Below, piece by piece: positions 13,655 through 23,740 of a DNA stretch of 64,000 nucleotides. The stretch spans positions 1,178,001 through 1,242,000 of the forward strand of contig NC_063068.1 in the NCBI RefSeq assembly GCF_022605165.1, given 5' to 3'. The position numbers were made by a program, and so were the translations under genes. A model generated the notes under the pieces. That model saw nothing but the letters and a program-made list of their open reading frames with translations, made no database searches and had not been told where the DNA came from. Position 1 is the stretch's first letter. Each line of letters opens with the position of its first letter. The DNA is from Purpureocillium takamizusanense (Eukaryota > Ascomycota > Sordariomycetes > Hypocreales > Ophiocordycipitaceae).

Positions 13655-15364
13655 ATGGCGACCCAAACGGAGGCGGTGAAGCTTGAGCCTGTCGCGGCAG
13701 GCATCGTCGACTCTCAGAGCACCTCCCGCTTGAGCCACAGTGACAGCGCGGGGAGCCCCGGAGACTACGACAACAGCAACTCGTTGACAGCCTCTCGACT
13801 GCGCAAGGTGGCCGTGACGTTCCAGCTGGCCGGGGTCAACTTTGCCTCGAGCGCCACGAACGGACTTGTCGTCGTCGGCCTGCCCCGGATGACTGCCGAC
13901 CTCCATCTGCCCGCGTCGCTCGCGTTCTGGCCATCGTCTGTTCCCGGACTGGCCACGGCATCGGCGCTCCTGCTTGCCGGCGCCTTTGCCGACGTTGTCG
14001 GCCACAAGTCGATGGAGCTCATAGGATGCGTCGTCAGCGGCGCCATGATCATCGGCTGCGGGTTCACCCGACGCGGCGAGGAGCTGGTCGCGCTGCGGGC
14101 ACTGCACGGTGTGGCCATGGCGTTGCATCTGTCGAGCTCCGTGGGTCTCATCACCAACATCATGCCGCGCGGAAAGGGGCGCAACTTGAGCTTCGCGTGC
14201 GTCGGCCTGAGCCAGCCGCTCGGCTTCTCGGTCGGCTTGGTCATGGGCGGCGTCTTGGTCGACACCATCGGGTGGCGCGCGGGCTGGTATCTCTACGGAG
14301 GCATCACCCTGCTGCTGGCCGCCGTTGGCGCCTGGGCGCTGCCTGCGTCAGGACCGGTTGGTACGCTCAAGACTGTGGTGAGGGACATGAGGACCAAGGT
14401 CGACGGGGTTGGGGCACTGCTCGCGTCGGCCTTTATGACGCTGATATCGTACTTTTTGGCGTATGTGACTGAGCGAGCATCGACTGATCCGAAGCCTAAC
14501 CCGCTGCTAACAAAGTCTCATCACAGGATCATCAGCACCGACGTATACAAGGTCAAGGAGCCTACGAGCATCGTGCTTCTCTGCCTGGGCGTCGTGGCCC
14601 TTCCTCTGTTCATCGGGTGGATGCATCGCCAGCACAGGGCCGGGAAGCCTGCTCTGATACCCAACTCTTTCTGGAGCAACTCAAGCTTTGCGACCATCTG
14701 CGCGACCATCGCCCTGTCCTTTGCGGTGCTGAACTCCCTGGAACTCTTTGCGAGTCTTTAGTAAGTCTCCATGTTCAAGTTGAGTCTCATATTGAAGATC
14801 TGTGTTTGACGATGGCACAGCTTCCAAGAGATACAGCACTTCTCCGCTCTACAAGCCGCGCTGCGTATTGTGCCGAGCGTTATAGTTGGCGTCGCGCTCA
14901 ACTTTGCCACCGGCCTCGTCGTGCACAAGATTCCGGCGGTGTGGCTCATCGTCATCACTTCTCTCCTTACGGCCGGTTCTCCGCTCCTGATGGCCTTGAT
15001 CAAGCCTCAGTCAACGTACTGGACCGGCGCCTTCTTTGCGCAGATTCTCATGCCATTCTCCGTGGATGTGCTGTTCACCGTCGGCCTCATCATCGTGACC
15101 GACACATTCCCCGACGACAAACAAGCAATCGCCGGCGCCGTGTTCAACACTGCATCGCAGTTTGGGAACTCACTCGGGTTGGCCGTCATGCAGGTCGTCT
15201 CGACGCTCGTGGCCAAGAACAACGCTCGCATGACGCCGCCTGGCCCTCTTCTGGAAGGGTACAGGGCGGCCTTTTGGACCATGCTGGCACTCATGATTGG
15301 GTGCACGGCTATAGGAGGTATTGGGCTACGAAAGACTGGGAAGATTGGCTTGAAGCAGGAGTAA
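13655..15364 (+). CDS. MFS drug:H+ antiporter-type transporter (DHA2-like, 14 TM)
   Basis: A membrane exporter of 527 aa in three exons: 13655-14460, 14527-14760 and 14821-15364. Introns have gtatgt/cacag and gtaagt/cacag borders and keep frame. After a ~45-residue Ser-rich N-terminus come many hydrophobic segments. Between TM2 and TM3 is a loop AGAFADVVGHKSMELIGC, a degenerate form of the MFS signature. The DHA2 hallmark arrangement is seen: GLSQPLGFSVGLVMGGVLVD followed by GWRAGWYLYGG. Substrate unknown. It is the left-hand transporter beside the PepM/Ppd pair, so it is a candidate exporter of that pathway's product, by position only. Confidence 0.88.
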
Positions 15365-15967: not shown

Positions 15968-17246
15968 ATGGTATCTCTCGCTACAATTGACGAGGCGAAT
16001 CGCACCATAAAGCCTATGCGCCCTTTGAAGGGTATTCTAAAGCAGAAAGTCCAGCTAAGCTTTGCTCCTGTCGAATGTTGGTCTCATCTTCCCTTGTCTT
16101 CGGCAAGTCCCATCAATTCTTCAGTATAGCTGACATAGAAGCGCAGTCCACGGCGGATCTCAAGTTGACTGCGCCCAAAACCACCACTTCTTTGCAGCGC
16201 CTGGTATCAAGCCTGAGCACGTGCCCAGACAGTTGTAGGACGACTATCTGTACCACTTGCACATCGCTTCGGTATCGGACTGGTACTCCCGCTACCCACC
16301 TGTGGACGGGAGCAAGAAGAACCGAGTCACATTTGACGACCATCGGACGGTCAAGGTGTTTCTGATCGATGGTCCCATGGCGGAGTGGCCCTGCTACCCG
16401 CACCACGACCCGGGCCACATCCGCGTGTCCGAGCAAGAGTACTCCACGGAGGATCTGGAGATGATCAATAGTGTGCCAGACGACGACGACGATTGCCCGG
16501 AGCAGCTGTACGAGTGTTCAGACTCGAGCAGTGACACCTCTAGCGAGGGCGGTCTTGCCACGCCTCCGCTCGGCCCCATCAGCACCTTTGATGTCCTCGA
16601 CATCAAGTTTGCCTCCCGCAGCTGGGACGATATGATGGAAGAAGACGAAGAGATTGAGCTTGGAGTTCCCGTGTTGGAAAAGACCATCTCCACCACTCAT
16701 TCGAATATCGCCATCTTTGATGGCCTCGGTACCGGCATCAAGGGACGACGATGGGACGAGGACGATGAAGACGACTTGCCTGTCTTGCCCATGACGGCTA
16801 CGCCATGGAACGCCGACGTTTTCGACGGTCGAGGCCTTGGAATTACAGGGAAGCGATGGGATGAAGACGATGAGGATGAGATTGCCCTGGATGTCTTGTC
16901 GGCGACCATCTCCCAGCGCGCCGCACCACAGATTACTATTTTTGACGGACTCGGTACGGGGATCAAAGGACGCCGGTGGGATGACGATGACGATGACGAT
17001 GACGACTTTGACATCTCCTCCTACGCTATCGTCGCAGCGATGGCAAAGCAATCCCAGCGGAACACGGACGCTTGTCGTGCTTTGGGAAACCGCCTAAAGA
17101 GCCCGTCTGGGAATGACTCGGAAGATAACAACGAGGTCCGACGAGGGGAAGCGTGTAAAAAGAGCCCATGCATAGACGTATGGGATGGCAGGGGTCTCTC
17201 ACTTCGGGGCATGCAGTGGGCTGATGACGAGCTTGAGGAAGATTGA
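15968..17246 (+). CDS. acidic tandem-repeat protein, function unknown
   Basis: I do not recognise this gene. The proposed model is 15968-16076, 16142-16203 and 16239-17246, about 392 aa. The first intron (gttggt...catagaag, CTGAC branch) is plausible; the second is only 35 bases, which is doubtful. The frame holding 16239-17246 is certainly coding. It contains four imperfect copies of a unit [IV][FW]DGxGxxxxGxxW followed by a run of Asp/Glu, at 16713, 16818, 16938 and 17178. Upstream are RPLKGILKQK and KKNRVTFDDHRTVKVF, which resemble the KGILK and RVxF docking segments of protein phosphatase 1 regulators; that link is inference. There is no signal peptide or membrane segment. The gene sits between an MFS exporter and PepM, tail-to-tail with the latter. 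Confidence 0.7.
16713..17243 (+). repeat. four-copy coding repeat, ~21 residues each
   Basis: Copies start at about 16713, 16818, 16938 and 17178. Units 1 and 3 share FDGLGTGIKGRRWD; units 2 and 4 share DGRGL. Each ends in Trp-[DA] and then acidic residues, up to nine Asp in a row in unit 3 (GAT/GAC codons). Spacing of 105, 120 and 240 bases shows the units are embedded in variable linkers rather than being a simple microsatellite. Confidence 0.85.
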
Positions 17247-17604: not shown

Positions 17605-18951
17605 CTACGCCCCCTTGCCCTCCTGTGGCACTGCCGAGTTCATTCCAGTGAAAAACACCTTGAGCCAATTTGCGAATGCATCTTGGATCGCCCCTAACCA
17701 TCCGGAGCTGTGCTGGCCGTAGCTGGGGCCGTCTCCTCGGCGGTCCTTTGTGGCCGCCAAGGTCTCGACGCCAGTCTCGGGCCACGACATGGAACCCAAC
17801 TTGAAGGTGACTTGGGAGCCGTTGATACGGAGAAGGTCGGCAACGGGGATGATGTGCCTGTCGGCGCCCCCCGATGTCTTGGAATCCAGGAGACTCGTGA
17901 GAACGTTTCGCATGCCCTCGACCGCCCCGCGTTCGAGTTCTTTGCCATACTGTATGATGGCCTCGTTGCGGTGTTCCATTTCCGAGATCTTGGCCAAAAG
18001 ACAGCCAAAATTCTGCAAAGATGCGCATCTCCCCAGGGCGGGTTCGGCCGAGAGGAGTCCCGGATTAGTGGCAAGGATCCCGTCGGATACCCGGTTGGCC
18101 GTCTTGATCTTGGCCCTCATCAAATGGTTGGCATAGATGATGACGTTGGCACCGGCGTTGTATAAGACGTCTTCGGGCGTGGTAGAGTACGTCGTCGGCA
18201 CCACGACGATGGGTGTGTGGCGGTTTCGGACACGGAAGCGTCGGATAAAGTCCAGGATCTCGTCGGGCTTCTTGCTCTTGCTGTGGATCATGATTGCGTC
18301 GGCACCGGCGGCGCAGTACGCCTGCGCGCGAGCGAGGGCGTCTTCCAGGGCGGCGCGGACGGACGCCATCTCCTCGGTGGCATCTTGCTTCCGCTTGCGC
18401 GTCGTGAAGCTCTCGATCCTCGCCGTGACCATAAAGTCCGCAGACGACGCCGCCGCCTCTTTGAAAGCCATGATGGTCGCTGAGAACTCGTGCATATTGG
18501 CTTGCCCCTGGGAGGCGGACGACGCAGCGAGCGAGTTGACCTTTGCGCCAGGCTCCGAGACTTCCTTGTCCTCGATGACCGCCATGGAGATGCCCATGCT
18601 CGACAGCTTCGCGACGAGAGCTGGGATCTCGGCCCTCGGGCCGCCGCTGTCGGCGTCAAAGGCCCAGCAGAGCTTCCGGGACTCGTCGTTTTCGTGACGG
18701 CCCGCGTCGGCATATGTAATGAGAGAGGCCCGCTCCAGGGGCGTTATCATTTCGGTGTCGGGGATGCCCAGATATGTGGTCTGGGTGAGGCCGCTGACCC
18801 AGACCCCGTGGAATGACTCGCCATCGCTGCCAATGGTTGTTCTCACGAGGTCAATGGACGAAGGGTCGTGAGCCTCCACGAGGCGGACCTTGGCGCGGTT
18901 CTGAGCAAGTGCAGACTTTACAGAGCTCGACATGGCTTCTGAATTGGTCAT
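17605..18951 (-). CDS. pepM: phosphoenolpyruvate phosphomutase (PepM)
   Basis: PepM rearranges phosphoenolpyruvate to phosphonopyruvate, the step that creates the C-P bond of nearly all biological phosphonates. It is a single exon of 448 aa. Expected active-site positions of the PEP mutase/isocitrate lyase superfamily are present: WVSGL (51-55), Asp65 in GIPDTE, FDAD (Asp99, Asp101), EDK (127-129), K-x-NS (Lys137, Asn139, Ser140), Arg178 in TARIE and His223 in MIHSK. VVVPTTYSTTP and ANHLMRAKI also fit PepM. Relative to the EDK(x5)NS signature of classical PepM, the loop has four extra residues. The C-terminus extends about 130-150 residues beyond bacterial PepM. Oxaloacetate hydrolase or a C-C lyase are alternatives by fold, but the adjacent Ppd gene favours PepM. 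The start could also be Met7 (18933). Confidence 0.9.
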   Translation of the reverse strand: MTNSEAMSSSVKSALAQNRAKVRLVEAHDPSSIDLVRTTIGSDGESFHGVWVSGLTQTTYLGIPDTEMITPLERASLITYADAGRHENDESRKLCWAFDADSGGPRAEIPALVAKLSSMGISMAVIEDKEVSEPGAKVNSLAASSASQGQANMHEFSATIMAFKEAAASSADFMVTARIESFTTRKRKQDATEEMASVRAALEDALARAQAYCAAGADAIMIHSKSKKPDEILDFIRRFRVRNRHTPIVVVPTTYSTTPEDVLYNAGANVIIYANHLMRAKIKTANRVSDGILATNPGLLSAEPALGRCASLQNFGCLLAKISEMEHRNEAIIQYGKELERGAVEGMRNVLTSLLDSKTSGGADRHIIPVADLLRINGSQVTFKLGSMSWPETGVETLAATKDRRGDGPSYGQHSSGWLGAIQDAFANWLKVFFTGMNSAVPQEGKGA

Positions 18952-20618
18952 CAGACGGGAGGGCTTTTTTTGTTCCTTGAGAGCTGTGAATAAGAAACAA
19001 AATCAAAAGGTACAGGGCGCGCAATGAAGTCAGAAGCACCTGTTGTTGACAGTGGATATTCAAAGTTGGAAACACCACAAGATGTGATGGCCAGATCCCA
19101 CATGTACTGAGCACCCTTTTCTTATGCTCCAAGCCTTTTCGTCAACGCATGTACATGACATCAGCTACGCGAGGATAAGAGACACCAAGAGCAGGCATAC
19201 TCTCCCGCTCTGCCCCGCGGCGGGAGTTGCAGCGATCGCCGACAGCATTGCCGCGACTTCATCATCACAAACATGCAACAAGAACCTCCCCACCAACCAT
19301 GAGGCTTCAAAAGCTGCAAGTGAGGCAATCACCCGTCCGTGCTCGGTGAGGTCCTCTGAAGCACGTCGCAGCTGAGACATTCAGCCGGCCGTGTCTAATC
19401 AGACGCTGCCGTCTATGCGCAGTTTCCCCATGTCAGACACGCAGGACCTTTCCCGGCCGGGCCGCGGCCAGCTGCATAATGGTCGTGTGGCCACCTTCCA
19501 AAATCGTCTTGAGAGGACATGATGCCGCCCTCCCCCAGTTACTTTGCGACCCCCCGGCCGTTTTTGTCTTACCCGAGCATGGACAGGGCTTCGTCTGGTG
19601 CTGGACCGTTGCACGATCGCTGCACGTAGTTCGTGCCGGCGTTTATCAGTCCAGTCATTCCCTCATCTTCATCTCAAGCCGGGTCGGTCAGCAATTGCAT
19701 GTGACCAGTCGCGCGCCACCAGAGACCCTGGTCACTATGGGCTGCAGTGTTTCCAAAAGCATAGTGACAGGACCACAGAAATATGCGACGAGAAACACAA
19801 CATAGGCTCGAGACGGCAGGGATGATGGGGCCGGCCGCGGTCGTGCAACCATGTAGGCAGCCGCCTTCTGACAGCCTGTGCCGCAAGAGGATGCCACGAA
19901 TCCTCGGTTATCATGTTACGACTTCATGTTGAGTTGCCGACAAGTATTTGCTGATAATGACCAAATATTGCGTCAATGTCGGTGTAAGGCGAACCGTTCA
20001 AAGGCCACAGACAAAGGCGCCTTCTGTATTGTCAAGGTTACAACGTCGTATCGGCACGGCCGCATCAATATTGAGCGTACTGCCCACCCTGCTTGGCTGT
20101 ATTGGGCTACTTACAGTTGCCACTCCGAGACACTGTACGCGAGTTGCAGGGGCTCTTTGCAGGCGGCGGCTCGAATGGTCCGCTGGTATGTATCCTGCGC
20201 CAGCTTGCCGAACGCCTGTCGTGTTTCTGATCTCAGCTCAAGCCTGGCAAGCCACTGGTGTGCCGTTTCAATTGATGGCTGCAGTAGAGGGCTTGGAGAT
20301 AAGCACAAAGGAAAGCTGAAGAAGTCTACGTAATGTAGTAGCTCGAAATCGACAACGATCAGCGAGTTCAGCAGAGCTATGCTGTCGCCTATATTTAGTA
20401 GTCAATGCTTCTGTGCAATTTGTATGGCCTCTTACACAGCCGAGAAAGTACATGTAGTACTCGTGCTCTAGATTCACTGTCCGGTAGGGTACTGGTCTCG
20501 TGCCCCCTCCCTAGATCCCAGTCTGCACATCTCTTTAGCCTTGCTCCCCCTCTTCTCTCTCTGCTCGCCCGCCCTTGTTCATGCCCATTGAGCATCTATC
20601 CGCTTTACCGCCAGCGCC
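18952..20618. promoter_or_regulatory. divergent promoter region of pepM and ppd
   Basis: This 1,667-base gap separates the start codons of PepM and Ppd, which are transcribed away from each other. No coding frame inside it has a recognisable domain. A GC-rich, CGG/CCG-dense patch lies near 19380-19570, and the last 100 bases before the Ppd ATG are pyrimidine-rich. Shared regulation of the two enzymes from this region is an inference from the arrangement; no specific binding site is claimed. Confidence 0.45.
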
Positions 20619-21806
20619 ATGACGCCATTCGACCCCGAGAAGTTCCACGACGAGGCGCTTACACCCAATGGCATCGATTCAATATTCGGAGTCCCTGACT
20701 CCAGTCTCAGCGGGCTGTTGAGCTATCTGGCTGCCAATAAGCCGAAGCCACAGCACGTTGTCATGGCCAACGAGGGCGGGGCCGTCGCGCTCGCCGCCGG
20801 ACACTACCTCGCCACGCGCAGGGTGGCAATGTGCTATCTGCAAAACTCGGGTCTTTCTAATGCGTTGAATCCCCTCCAGAGCCTGGCTGCAAAGGAAGTG
20901 TTTGGTATTCCCATGCTGCTCATGATAGGGTGGCGCGGCAAACCAGGAATCAAAGACGAACCTCAACATGCTTTGATAGGTCCGCGTCTTTTAGACAACC
21001 TCAGAGCCAACGACATCCCTTTTGAGGAGTTGCCAGAGTCTATACAGCAGTCAAAGGAAGCAATAGGGCGGTTGATTTCAAAGGCACTAGCAGAGAAAAC
21101 GCCGGTCGCACTCATCGTGCCTCCCGGAGCCTTCACCCCCTATACCAAGGGAGCGACAATCACAGCCGTAGGCGGCTGCGAGAAACGTGTTCATGTTGAA
21201 GCCGAGAGATGGTTCACCCCAGAGTCAGAGTTGCAGCTTTCCCGCGAGATCGTTGTGAGGCGCGTGCTCGCGCACATGAAAGAGGCCGATGTCTCCGTGT
21301 CGTCGCTCGGAGGGACCAGTCGAGAACTATACATGGTCCGCAAGGAGAGAGGCGAGTCTCTCTCATCAAACTTCTTTTGTCTCGGAGCCATGGGACATTC
21401 CTTTGCCGTGGCCAACGGCATCAGGCTCCGGCGTGCCACGGGGCGAGTGTTTTGCATCGACGGCGACGGGTCTTTTGTGATGCATTTGGGGAACAACGCC
21501 GTGTTGGCGGACATATCACAGCCTAACCTGGTGCATGTGGTGGTCTTCAACGGGGTCCATAGCTCGACGGGTAACCAGCCCCTCACGATTAGCAGAGAGG
21601 CATTTCTGGCGGCCGCCAATGGTCTCAGCTACGAACGCAAGTTCTTTGTCGACAATGCTGAAGCGCTGGATCGGGCGTTGGGCATGTTGGACGGGCGGAG
21701 CACTCTCATCTTGGTGCTGGCTAATGAATCGGCGTCAGCGAGCCTTCCGCGGCCGTCGGAGACTGCCAGAGAGTTGAAAGACGTTTTTATGGGGTTCTTC
21801 AGTTAA
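20619..21806 (+). CDS. ppd: phosphonopyruvate decarboxylase (Ppd), ThDP-dependent
   Basis: Ppd decarboxylates phosphonopyruvate to phosphonoacetaldehyde and so pulls the unfavourable PepM reaction forward. A single exon gives 395 aa, the normal size of the family. Visible motifs: FGVPDSSL near residue 23; the catalytic Glu in NEGGAVALAAGHYLAT (Glu52); NSGLSNALNPL; GWRGKPGIKDEPQH; and the ThDP/Mg site GDGS (282-285) closing with Asn311 in FNGVHSSTGNQ. These follow the Ppd pattern rather than that of acetolactate synthase or pyruvate decarboxylase, which are ~550-600 aa. The ATG at 20619 gives no extra N-terminal sequence and no targeting signal, suggesting a cytosolic enzyme. It diverges from PepM, which makes a phosphonate pathway the most economical explanation. 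Confidence 0.93.
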   Translation: MTPFDPEKFHDEALTPNGIDSIFGVPDSSLSGLLSYLAANKPKPQHVVMANEGGAVALAAGHYLATRRVAMCYLQNSGLSNALNPLQSLAAKEVFGIPMLLMIGWRGKPGIKDEPQHALIGPRLLDNLRANDIPFEELPESIQQSKEAIGRLISKALAEKTPVALIVPPGAFTPYTKGATITAVGGCEKRVHVEAERWFTPESELQLSREIVVRRVLAHMKEADVSVSSLGGTSRELYMVRKERGESLSSNFFCLGAMGHSFAVANGIRLRRATGRVFCIDGDGSFVMHLGNNAVLADISQPNLVHVVVFNGVHSSTGNQPLTISREAFLAAANGLSYERKFFVDNAEALDRALGMLDGRSTLILVLANESASASLPRPSETARELKDVFMGFFS

Positions 21807-22183: not shown

Positions 22184-23740
22184 TTAATCTTCATTCCCAA
22201 CACGTCCATTCTGGCCGCTACATGTAGGAGCCTCCTCATCACTCTGCTCGTGTTCCTCTGGTAATTCATGAGCGTGCAATTTCATGTTCACAAATATGAC
22301 GAATAGGCCCAGGTCATAACCAATTCGCAAGGCGCCAGCGATGACAAAGGCAATCCAGAACCGGTCGGTGCCAGCAAGCCAACCAGTCAGACTGGGGCCG
22401 ACGGTGGACGCCAGCGTTCGAAGCATGCCCGTGATGCCCATGACGGCAGTGCGCTCCTCGGGCTTCACGACGGCTGCGATGAAGGCGGCCCGGGGGCCTT
22501 GGTCCATGTTGTTGAGGCCGGTGCGGATGAAGAGGAGCACCACCGTCAGCGACACGCTCTGGGGGATCGGGAAGAGCAGAACCGCGGTGGAAGATGGCAG
22601 GTGCGTGAATACCATGGTGTTGATGAGTCCTAGGTGCCGGGCAAGTGGTCCGGCGAACATGGAGGAGACGGCCATGAGGACGTAGCTGATGGACATGATG
22701 TCGCCCAAGACCGACTCGTCCAGGCTGAACTTGCGCGCGAGGTAGTAGTTGGTCAGCGCGTACGAGACCATGCCGTCTGCCAGTGAGTCGATGGCGAGCA
22801 GGATCCAGATTTTGATGGAGACGACCAGTGACTCTTTGGATATTTGAGAGAAGCGGCTGAAGAGCCCGTTCCTGCGCGGCTCATCTCGCCCGACTGGACT
22901 TGCGGGACGTAGTCGTCGCTGCTGCTGGTCCGCGTCAAGTTGAACCGAATCAGATCGGTCCCGGCCATTGCCTTGTGCAATTGCATCTCCCTGATAGCCG
23001 TTGATGCGATCGTGTTCCGCGGGGCCTAGAAGCGGATCCGCGTCGGGGGATTTATCGTCTGTATCCGCCATCAAGTCGGGCGACTCGCACTTGTCGCTCA
23101 TGAGGAGGGCGCAGATGAGCGAGGTGACGCCCATGGCGGCGTAGATCCAGAACATGTCATGGTATGCCTCGGTGACGGTGCCGCCGCGCCACTCCTGGAG
23201 GACGTGGACCATGCGGCCGGCGACTTCGGTGCCCACGGCCGAGCTCATGGTCGAAATGGTCACGTACCAGGACAGGACATCGGCACGGGTCGAGGGCTCG
23301 GTGAGGTGCGACAGCGTCGACTCTTCGATGGAGCGAAAGGGCCCAAAGTCGCCGCCCGTGGCGCTGATGACGCCGACAACGGCGCCGAAGAGCAGGATCC
23401 AGTAGTTCTCAAAGTAGACGAAGACGAGGCCCGAGAAGACCATGAGGGCGCCGCCGAGGATGAGGATGCGGCGGCGGCCGGTGCGGTCGGCGACCAGGGC
23501 GGTGAGGAGCGAGAGGATCACGTCGCCGACCAGAGTCAGGGTCATGAACAGGCCGATCTTGAAGTCGGAGTAGTTGAGTGACGACATGAAGAGGGCAATG
23601 ATGAGAGAGATGGCGCCAAAGGCAAACATGCGGCACGTCCGGCCGAGGATGACGAGCCATGCGTCCCGACCAGTCACCCACACAGAGGTGAGGCCGAGTT
23701 CTCGACATGTCCATTGCAAGGCGCCGCGAGCCGACGCCAT
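22184..23740 (-). CDS. MFS transporter beside the PepM/Ppd pair
   Basis: A single exon of 518 aa with about 12 hydrophobic segments and the MFS loop motif ADRTGRRRILILGG after TM2. The central cytoplasmic loop (about residues 220-300) is long, acidic and Gln/Arg-rich, as in other fungal MFS proteins with two six-TM halves. The second half has GPLARHLGLINTM and a GPSLTGWLAG segment. Substrate unknown; family members of this shape include bacterial-type multidrug and sugar carriers. It is convergent with Ppd (377 bases between stop codons) and forms the right-hand transporter of the suspected phosphonate locus, where it could export product or move an intermediate. Confidence 0.88.
   Translation of the reverse strand: MASARGALQWTCRELGLTSVWVTGRDAWLVILGRTCRMFAFGAISLIIALFMSSLNYSDFKIGLFMTLTLVGDVILSLLTALVADRTGRRRILILGGALMVFSGLVFVYFENYWILLFGAVVGVISATGGDFGPFRSIEESTLSHLTEPSTRADVLSWYVTISTMSSAVGTEVAGRMVHVLQEWRGGTVTEAYHDMFWIYAAMGVTSLICALLMSDKCESPDLMADTDDKSPDADPLLGPAEHDRINGYQGDAIAQGNGRDRSDSVQLDADQQQRRLRPASPVGRDEPRRNGLFSRFSQISKESLVVSIKIWILLAIDSLADGMVSYALTNYYLARKFSLDESVLGDIMSISYVLMAVSSMFAGPLARHLGLINTMVFTHLPSSTAVLLFPIPQSVSLTVVLLFIRTGLNNMDQGPRAAFIAAVVKPEERTAVMGITGMLRTLASTVGPSLTGWLAGTDRFWIAFVIAGALRIGYDLGLFVIFVNMKLHAHELPEEHEQSDEEAPTCSGQNGRVGNED

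Follow-up and report, generated by a model that had tools for sequence, protein, structure and literature searches.

A divergent PepM-Ppd gene pair in Purpureocillium takamizusanense as a probable committing module of fungal phosphonate biosynthesis

We analyzed a stretch of 64,000 nucleotides from the insect-infecting ascomycete Purpureocillium takamizusanense (contig NC_063068.1, positions 1,178,001 to 1,242,000; hereafter, the window), which carries two neighboring genes encoding a phosphoenolpyruvate mutase-like protein (PepM) and a phosphonopyruvate decarboxylase (Ppd). With a probability of roughly 0.84, and judging from sequence, we regard this pair as the module that commits Purpureocillium to phosphonate biosynthesis, in which the two activities would be coupled. 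PepM would rearrange phosphoenolpyruvate (PEP) into phosphonopyruvate, an unfavorable reaction whose equilibrium lies on the side of PEP, and Ppd, a thiamine diphosphate (ThDP) enzyme, would decarboxylate phosphonopyruvate to phosphonoacetaldehyde, making the sequence irreversible. A reductase or another enzyme would then convert phosphonoacetaldehyde into the final compound, which might be 2-hydroxyethylphosphonate or one of its derivatives and which a neighboring transporter of the major facilitator superfamily (MFS) may export.

Locus and gene models

The window corresponds to C1:1178001-1242000 in a genome of 35.57 Mb and 14 contigs, on which the genome-wide searches were run. The published assembly of strain PT3 has 35.6 Mb in 14 scaffolds, with a maximum of 6.1 Mb and an N50 of 3.09 Mb (PMC9302088). 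The features of the pair are the following:

17605..18951, minus strand: PepM, phosphoenolpyruvate mutase-like protein of 448 aa, with PF13714, an EDK-x9-NS loop, and a C-terminal extension
18952..20618, no strand: intergenic stretch of 1,667 bp between the divergent PepM and Ppd genes, possibly a shared promoter region, judging from geometry only
20619..21806, plus strand: Ppd, ThDP-dependent phosphonopyruvate decarboxylase of 395 aa, the only match in the genome over the family cut-off

Both frames are uninterrupted (448 codons at 17608-18951 and 395 codons at 20619-21803, each followed by a stop), and the two divergent neighbors described in an initial annotation of the window, made from the sequence alone, are found at the same coordinates. 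Since most relatives in an alignment of 25 PepM sequences begin at the residue corresponding to Met7 of the window protein, the true start of PepM may be at 18933, in which case the protein would have 442 aa and the residue numbers used here would be 6 too high.

Identity of the two enzymes

The PepM of the window is most likely a PEP mutase, given its best profile model, its active site, the fold predicted for it, and its place in the tree. The best model is the one for PEP mutase (TIGR02320, E 3.4e-66). The PF13714 domain scores 134.7 bits against a gathering score of 31.5, and is common to lyases and thus unspecific. All the active-site residues named in the initial annotation are in place: Asp65, Asp99, Asp101, Glu127-Asp-Lys, Lys137-x-Asn139-Ser140, Arg178, and His223. 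We take them to match the numbering of the mollusc enzyme, of which D58 is given in the title of the structure entry. PEP mutases rank first in both the sequence and the predicted-fold comparisons, and the closest solved structures by either measure are those of a mollusc (1pym) and of Streptomyces (5unc), which differ from the window protein by a shorter gating loop, a shorter Arg-to-His segment, and chains of 295 and 337 residues, respectively, instead of 448. Residues 385-448 (window 17605-17799) form a tail modeled with low confidence, with a predicted helix at 419-436 in GWLGAIQDAFANWLKVFF. Most other sequences of the 25-member alignment end before this tail, which is similar in two other Purpureocillium sequences and is longer and different in Hirsutella.

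The Ppd of the window passes the equivalog cut-off of the NCBIfam model for phosphonopyruvate decarboxylase (TIGR03297; 323.3 vs 312.5 bits, E 1.9e-96), as does no other protein of the genome, and is scored far lower by the models of sulfopyruvate decarboxylase (81.2 and 75.9 bits). The ThDP residues expected from the initial annotation, the catalytic Glu52 and GDG(282)-x26-N311, are both present. A comparison with other ThDP enzymes, which had also been proposed, favors Ppd in terms of profile scores, the corresponding tree being made of Ppd sequences alone. In the public models of two Ppd of P. lilacinum (P0127 and P0128, with 319 and 294 aa, respectively), part of the interior of the 395-aa window protein is missing, which looks like the result of over-predicted introns.

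For the phylogenetic analyses, we used as fungal-type PepM the best 120 of 1,229 matches, many of which are unnamed and were assigned to this type by clustering with named fungi. The PepM tree included 25 fungal-type and 23 prokaryote sequences and two paralogues from the same genome; a larger quick tree had 143 sequences. The fungal-type PepM form one clade (support 100/100), and in the Ppd tree the 22 fungal-type sequences are likewise on one side, apart from 26 prokaryote ones (SH-aLRT 100). The genome holds six PF13714 matches, including PepM. In the two that were placed in the tree (L009 and L011), visual inspection showed no EDK..NS motif, and both lie outside the PepM. The separation from lyase-fold paralogues on which the initial annotation had made the assignment depend is thus seen for these two lyase-like proteins (99/98), with no characterized lyase in the tree and with a warning of the program that the paralogue branches are very long and possibly misleading. 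The PepM of the window groups with those of P. lilacinum, P. lavendulum, Hirsutella, and Cordyceps sp. RAO-2017 (96/88), a grouping that is unsupported in the quick tree of 143 sequences.

A fungal type of PepM

The fungal-type PepM differ from the prokaryote ones in two segments. The prokaryote set was drawn from the best 80 of 575 confirmed Ppd loci, of which 77 have a PepM; these bacterial and archaeal modules resemble that of the window in having adjoining genes of the same two families. EDK-x5-NS is found in 77/77 of these prokaryote PepM, whereas 118 of the 120 fungal-type sequences listed carry EDK-x9-NS; of the remaining two, one carries x10 and the other gave no match. The segment between the active-site Arg and His is 14 residues longer in most fungal-type sequences than in prokaryote ones: it has 45 residues in 108/120 and 46 in 5 of the former (odd values or no reading in the remaining 7), against 31 residues in 54/77 and 32 in 8 of the latter (14 not read, one odd value). 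On the basis of the gating loop of the mollusc enzyme, as we presume it to be assigned, both inserts would sit at the mouth of the active site; the confidence of the predicted model is low in this loop (67 and 65 for the residue blocks at 131-150). In the open literature searched, which leaves out most subscription journals, we saw no report on the length of the fungal PepM loop.

This remodeling raises the possibility that the PepM-like protein no longer takes part in phosphonate chemistry, with the longer gating loop and the second insert serving a C-C lyase or hydrolase on whose product Ppd would act. We regard this as quite unlikely, though it is the alternative that survives best. All eight catalytic residues checked, including the Lys and Asn of K-x-NS, are kept in 117/120 fungal-type sequences, PEP mutases come first in sequence and fold comparisons, and the partner passes the Ppd cut-off. 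In one of the fungal-type sequences, the PepM of Talaromyces stipitatus (P0119), Glu replaces the lysine of K-x-NS and Arg the active-site His, so that this protein may be inactive; a Ppd sequence is found on a contig of exactly the same size.

Linkage of PepM and Ppd

The committing module would require that both enzymes act together, and a joint role is supported by their recurrent linkage and congruent trees. The fungal Ppd set consists of the 98 sequences ranked above a drop to 40% identity. PepM and Ppd sequences were scored as linked when their longest contigs had exactly equal sizes, each match being indirect, as the sizes come from 90% clusters. By this measure, 28 of the 98 fungal-type Ppd are linked to a PepM, the pair of the window included. 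The serial locus tags of the two genes, compared by eye, are consecutive in 6 of the 7 readable cases (Fulgogasparrea, Geoglossum, Penicillium longicatenatum, Talaromyces islandicus, Monosporascus, and Neoarthrinium). Over the 28 pairs, the PepM and Ppd tree distances are correlated (r 0.861, with 0/2000 permutations as high), and the groupings shared by the trees mix orders, e.g., Penicillium and Talaromyces with Hypoxylon and Dactylonectria. The idea that the two genes work together, initially drawn from adjacency and function, is strengthened by the recurrence of the linkage in other fungi. Both genes are present in three of the four nearest relatives (P. lilacinum, P. lavendulum, and Hirsutella rhossiliensis); the fourth, Cordyceps sp. 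RAO-2017, has no sequence among the fungal Ppd matches listed.

A different situation is found in a PepM clade of 36 sequences (support 99) that includes Penicillium citrinum, Penicillium chermesinum, Fusarium culmorum, Metarhizium guizhouense, Helicocarpus, and others. None of its 36 members has an equal-size contig match with Ppd, against 28/84 elsewhere (Fisher p 1e-5, for a clade chosen after the fact and sequences that are not independent), and yet the eight catalytic residues are intact in 36/36 (e.g., P0085, P0107, and P0103). The Ppd list falls to about 40% identity directly after its 98 sequences, where the one named is bacterial; it looks complete at its sensitivity, which a diverged Ppd could escape. 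Hence, the retention of one gene without the other, which the initial annotation would have counted against the assignment, apparently occurs in a PepM clade other than that of the window, whereas three near relatives of the window keep both.

Neighboring genes and further steps

Three other features lie close to the pair:

22184..23740, minus strand: MFS transporter of 518 aa, candidate exporter of the product, with homologues carrying the locus tag next to pepM in two lichen fungi
13655..15364, plus strand: another MFS transporter gene with two or more exons seen, putative locus member
16239..17246, plus strand: Asp-rich open reading frame with a repeated FDGLGTGIKGRRWD-type unit, putative locus member

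The MFS gene at 22184-23740 is convergent with Ppd and single in the genome, where the next match is 29-51% identical. Its homologues were studied among 120 listed of 1,822 matches, with tags and contigs matched by eye. In Fulgogasparrea, the tags of MFS, PepM, and Ppd are 002460, 002461, and 002462, and in Loxospora those of PepM and MFS are 006259 and 006260. Another homologue is on a contig with the same 23,468 bases as that of the Ppd sequence P0126, and the one of Hirsutella is on the same chromosome-size contig. We saw no report of a PepM-Ppd-MFS linkage in the open literature searched, with subscription journals mostly outside its reach.

The flanks were searched for a third step: of 40 exons picked by codon bias, those of PepM and Ppd included, 30 flanking ones were scanned with Pfam. 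This revealed a short-chain dehydrogenase/reductase (9.2-10.0 kb) and a dehydrogenase of the zinc type (31.2-32.0 kb), and nothing ties either to PepM-Ppd. The scanned part of the Asp-rich open reading frame (16302-17069) has no Pfam match, and the searches for tandem repeats near the locus and for tRNAs in the window gave nothing relevant. Formation of 2-aminoethylphosphonate by the aminotransferase PhnW was rejected, as an exon-by-exon search of the genome gave no match over the cut-off of TIGR02326, the only model used for it (best 39.6 of 400.8 bits).

Evidence against a phosphonate module

Several observations weigh against our interpretation of the pair. PepM falls below the equivalog cut-off of TIGR02320 (PEP_mutase; 223.1 vs 319.55 bits), which was failed by 5/5 further fungal PepM tried (0/6 passing with that of the window) and passed by 3/3 bacterial ones. 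It also lacks the literal EDK-x5-NS, having EDK-x9-NS instead; the published filter with this motif (EDKXXXXXNS) comes from a survey of prokaryote genomes (PMC6697681). The PepM identity proposed in the initial annotation thus agrees with the best model, residues, fold, and tree, and departs from the curated cut-off and the literal motif. As for linkage, the PepM and Ppd tags are non-consecutive in Alectoria, and the agreement of the two trees comes in part from vertical inheritance alone. The MFS tag is far from PepM in Alectoria and far from Ppd in Claussenomyces, the MFS family is large, the 120 homologues listed from it include none under the name P. lavendulum, and the tree places the transporter of the window closer to those of dermatophytes than to those of lichen fungi, which counts against the linkage of the transporter. 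Finally, besides the miss for PhnW, the best genome matches were 80.4 of 423.7 bits for the phosphonate iron-dependent alcohol dehydrogenase (Fe-ADH), on another contig, and 38.2 of 220 bits for phosphonatase. These three absences are weak evidence, since the models are prokaryote-trained, the fungal PepM miss their own cut-off, and the searches were made exon by exon, so that split genes score low.

Relation to fosfonochlorin and other known systems

Most known phosphonates are bacterial, and they include antibiotics and herbicides. Among fungi, the fosfonochlorin (ffn) pathway was reportedly described by Gama et al. in 2022. The locus of the window could belong to this pathway, in which phosphonoacetaldehyde would be reduced, cyclized by an iron/2-oxoglutarate enzyme of the FfnD type, and chlorinated, presumably in this order. 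PepM and Ppd would be its early steps too, and the PepM of F. avenaceum and T. islandicus share 50-51% identity with that of the window. Fosfonochlorin is a fungal phosphonate whose cyclizing enzyme FfnD is published (PMC10764440).

We nevertheless judge fosfonochlorin an unlikely product, slightly more so than a lyase or hydrolase role for PepM. The PepM of the window groups with four other sequences of Ophiocordycipitaceae, outside a 19-member clade (support 100) that comprises F. avenaceum, F. proliferatum, Clonostachys, Dactylonectria, T. islandicus, T. rugulosus, Penicillium longicatenatum, Hypoxylon, and Biscogniauxia. This clade is probably that of the fosfonochlorin PepM, since the compound has been reported from Fusarium and Talaromyces. 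Of the two 2-oxoglutarate oxygenase families searched, PhyH has 8 matches in the genome and TauD has 13, all of them outside the window, and no 2-oxoglutarate oxygenase is among its 30 Pfam-scanned exons. The argument from clades has its limit: Fusarium and Talaromyces are present in more than one of them, with the PepM of F. culmorum, T. stipitatus, and T. proteolyticus outside the 19-member clade. The mention of fosfonochlorin in the initial annotation does not point to the likely product here. The compound is attributed to F. avenaceum in a review (PMC13302981), and a 2014 study did not detect it in this species and doubted the older reports (PMC4237347).

It is highly improbable that the two genes serve catabolism or phosphorus recycling, with PepM running phosphonopyruvate back to PEP, the side that its equilibrium favors, or with the aldehyde cleaved to phosphate: Ppd would be a competitor for phosphonopyruvate, and the exon-by-exon search of the genome gave no phosphonatase above the cut-off.

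The locus is not the first fungal phosphonate case, as many loci of this kind exist in Ascomycota. The initial annotation had presented it as a candidate fungal phosphonate biosynthetic locus; the enzyme identities and their joint role are supported, and fungal phosphonate biosynthesis is already published. According to a review, pepM occurs in 4.2% of eukaryotes (PMC13302981), and phosphonate clusters have been reported in P. lilacinum FDZ8Y1 (one cluster, the closest prior report; PMC11576294), the Fusarium solani complex (PMC10455376), F. oxysporum f. sp. lentis (one fosfonochlorin-like and one unmatched region; PMC12213878), F. oxysporum BPF55 (phosphonate-type; PMC13117560), Phaeoacremonium minimum (PMC6099105), and lichen-associated Ascomycota (PMC13169696). 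P. lilacinum has relatives of the window proteins at 76% (PepM) and 84% (MFS). In the portions seen, these antiSMASH-type reports count or list clusters, unlike the analysis of residues, linkage, and clades made here.

Implications

A broader interpretation, to which we would give clearly less than even odds, is that an ancient branch of C-P bond enzymes evolved on its own in fungi, acquired a larger gating loop and another active-site insert, and escapes the literal PepM motif. It would have split into several types of pathways, including a compact PepM-Ppd-MFS cassette, found in the window and in lichen fungi, that would make and export an undescribed phosphonate, and a type without Ppd in which another enzyme would have to drive the mutase equilibrium. 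The apparently Ppd-less clade raises in this respect a testable question: what pulls its mutase forward. In practical terms, both the EDK-x5-NS filter and the curated cut-off would drop the fungal-type PepM seen here, if they were applied to fungi. The conservation of the module over several classes of ascomycetes, including lichens and insect pathogens, suggests that the phosphonate chemistry of fungi extends beyond the one compound with a published pathway.

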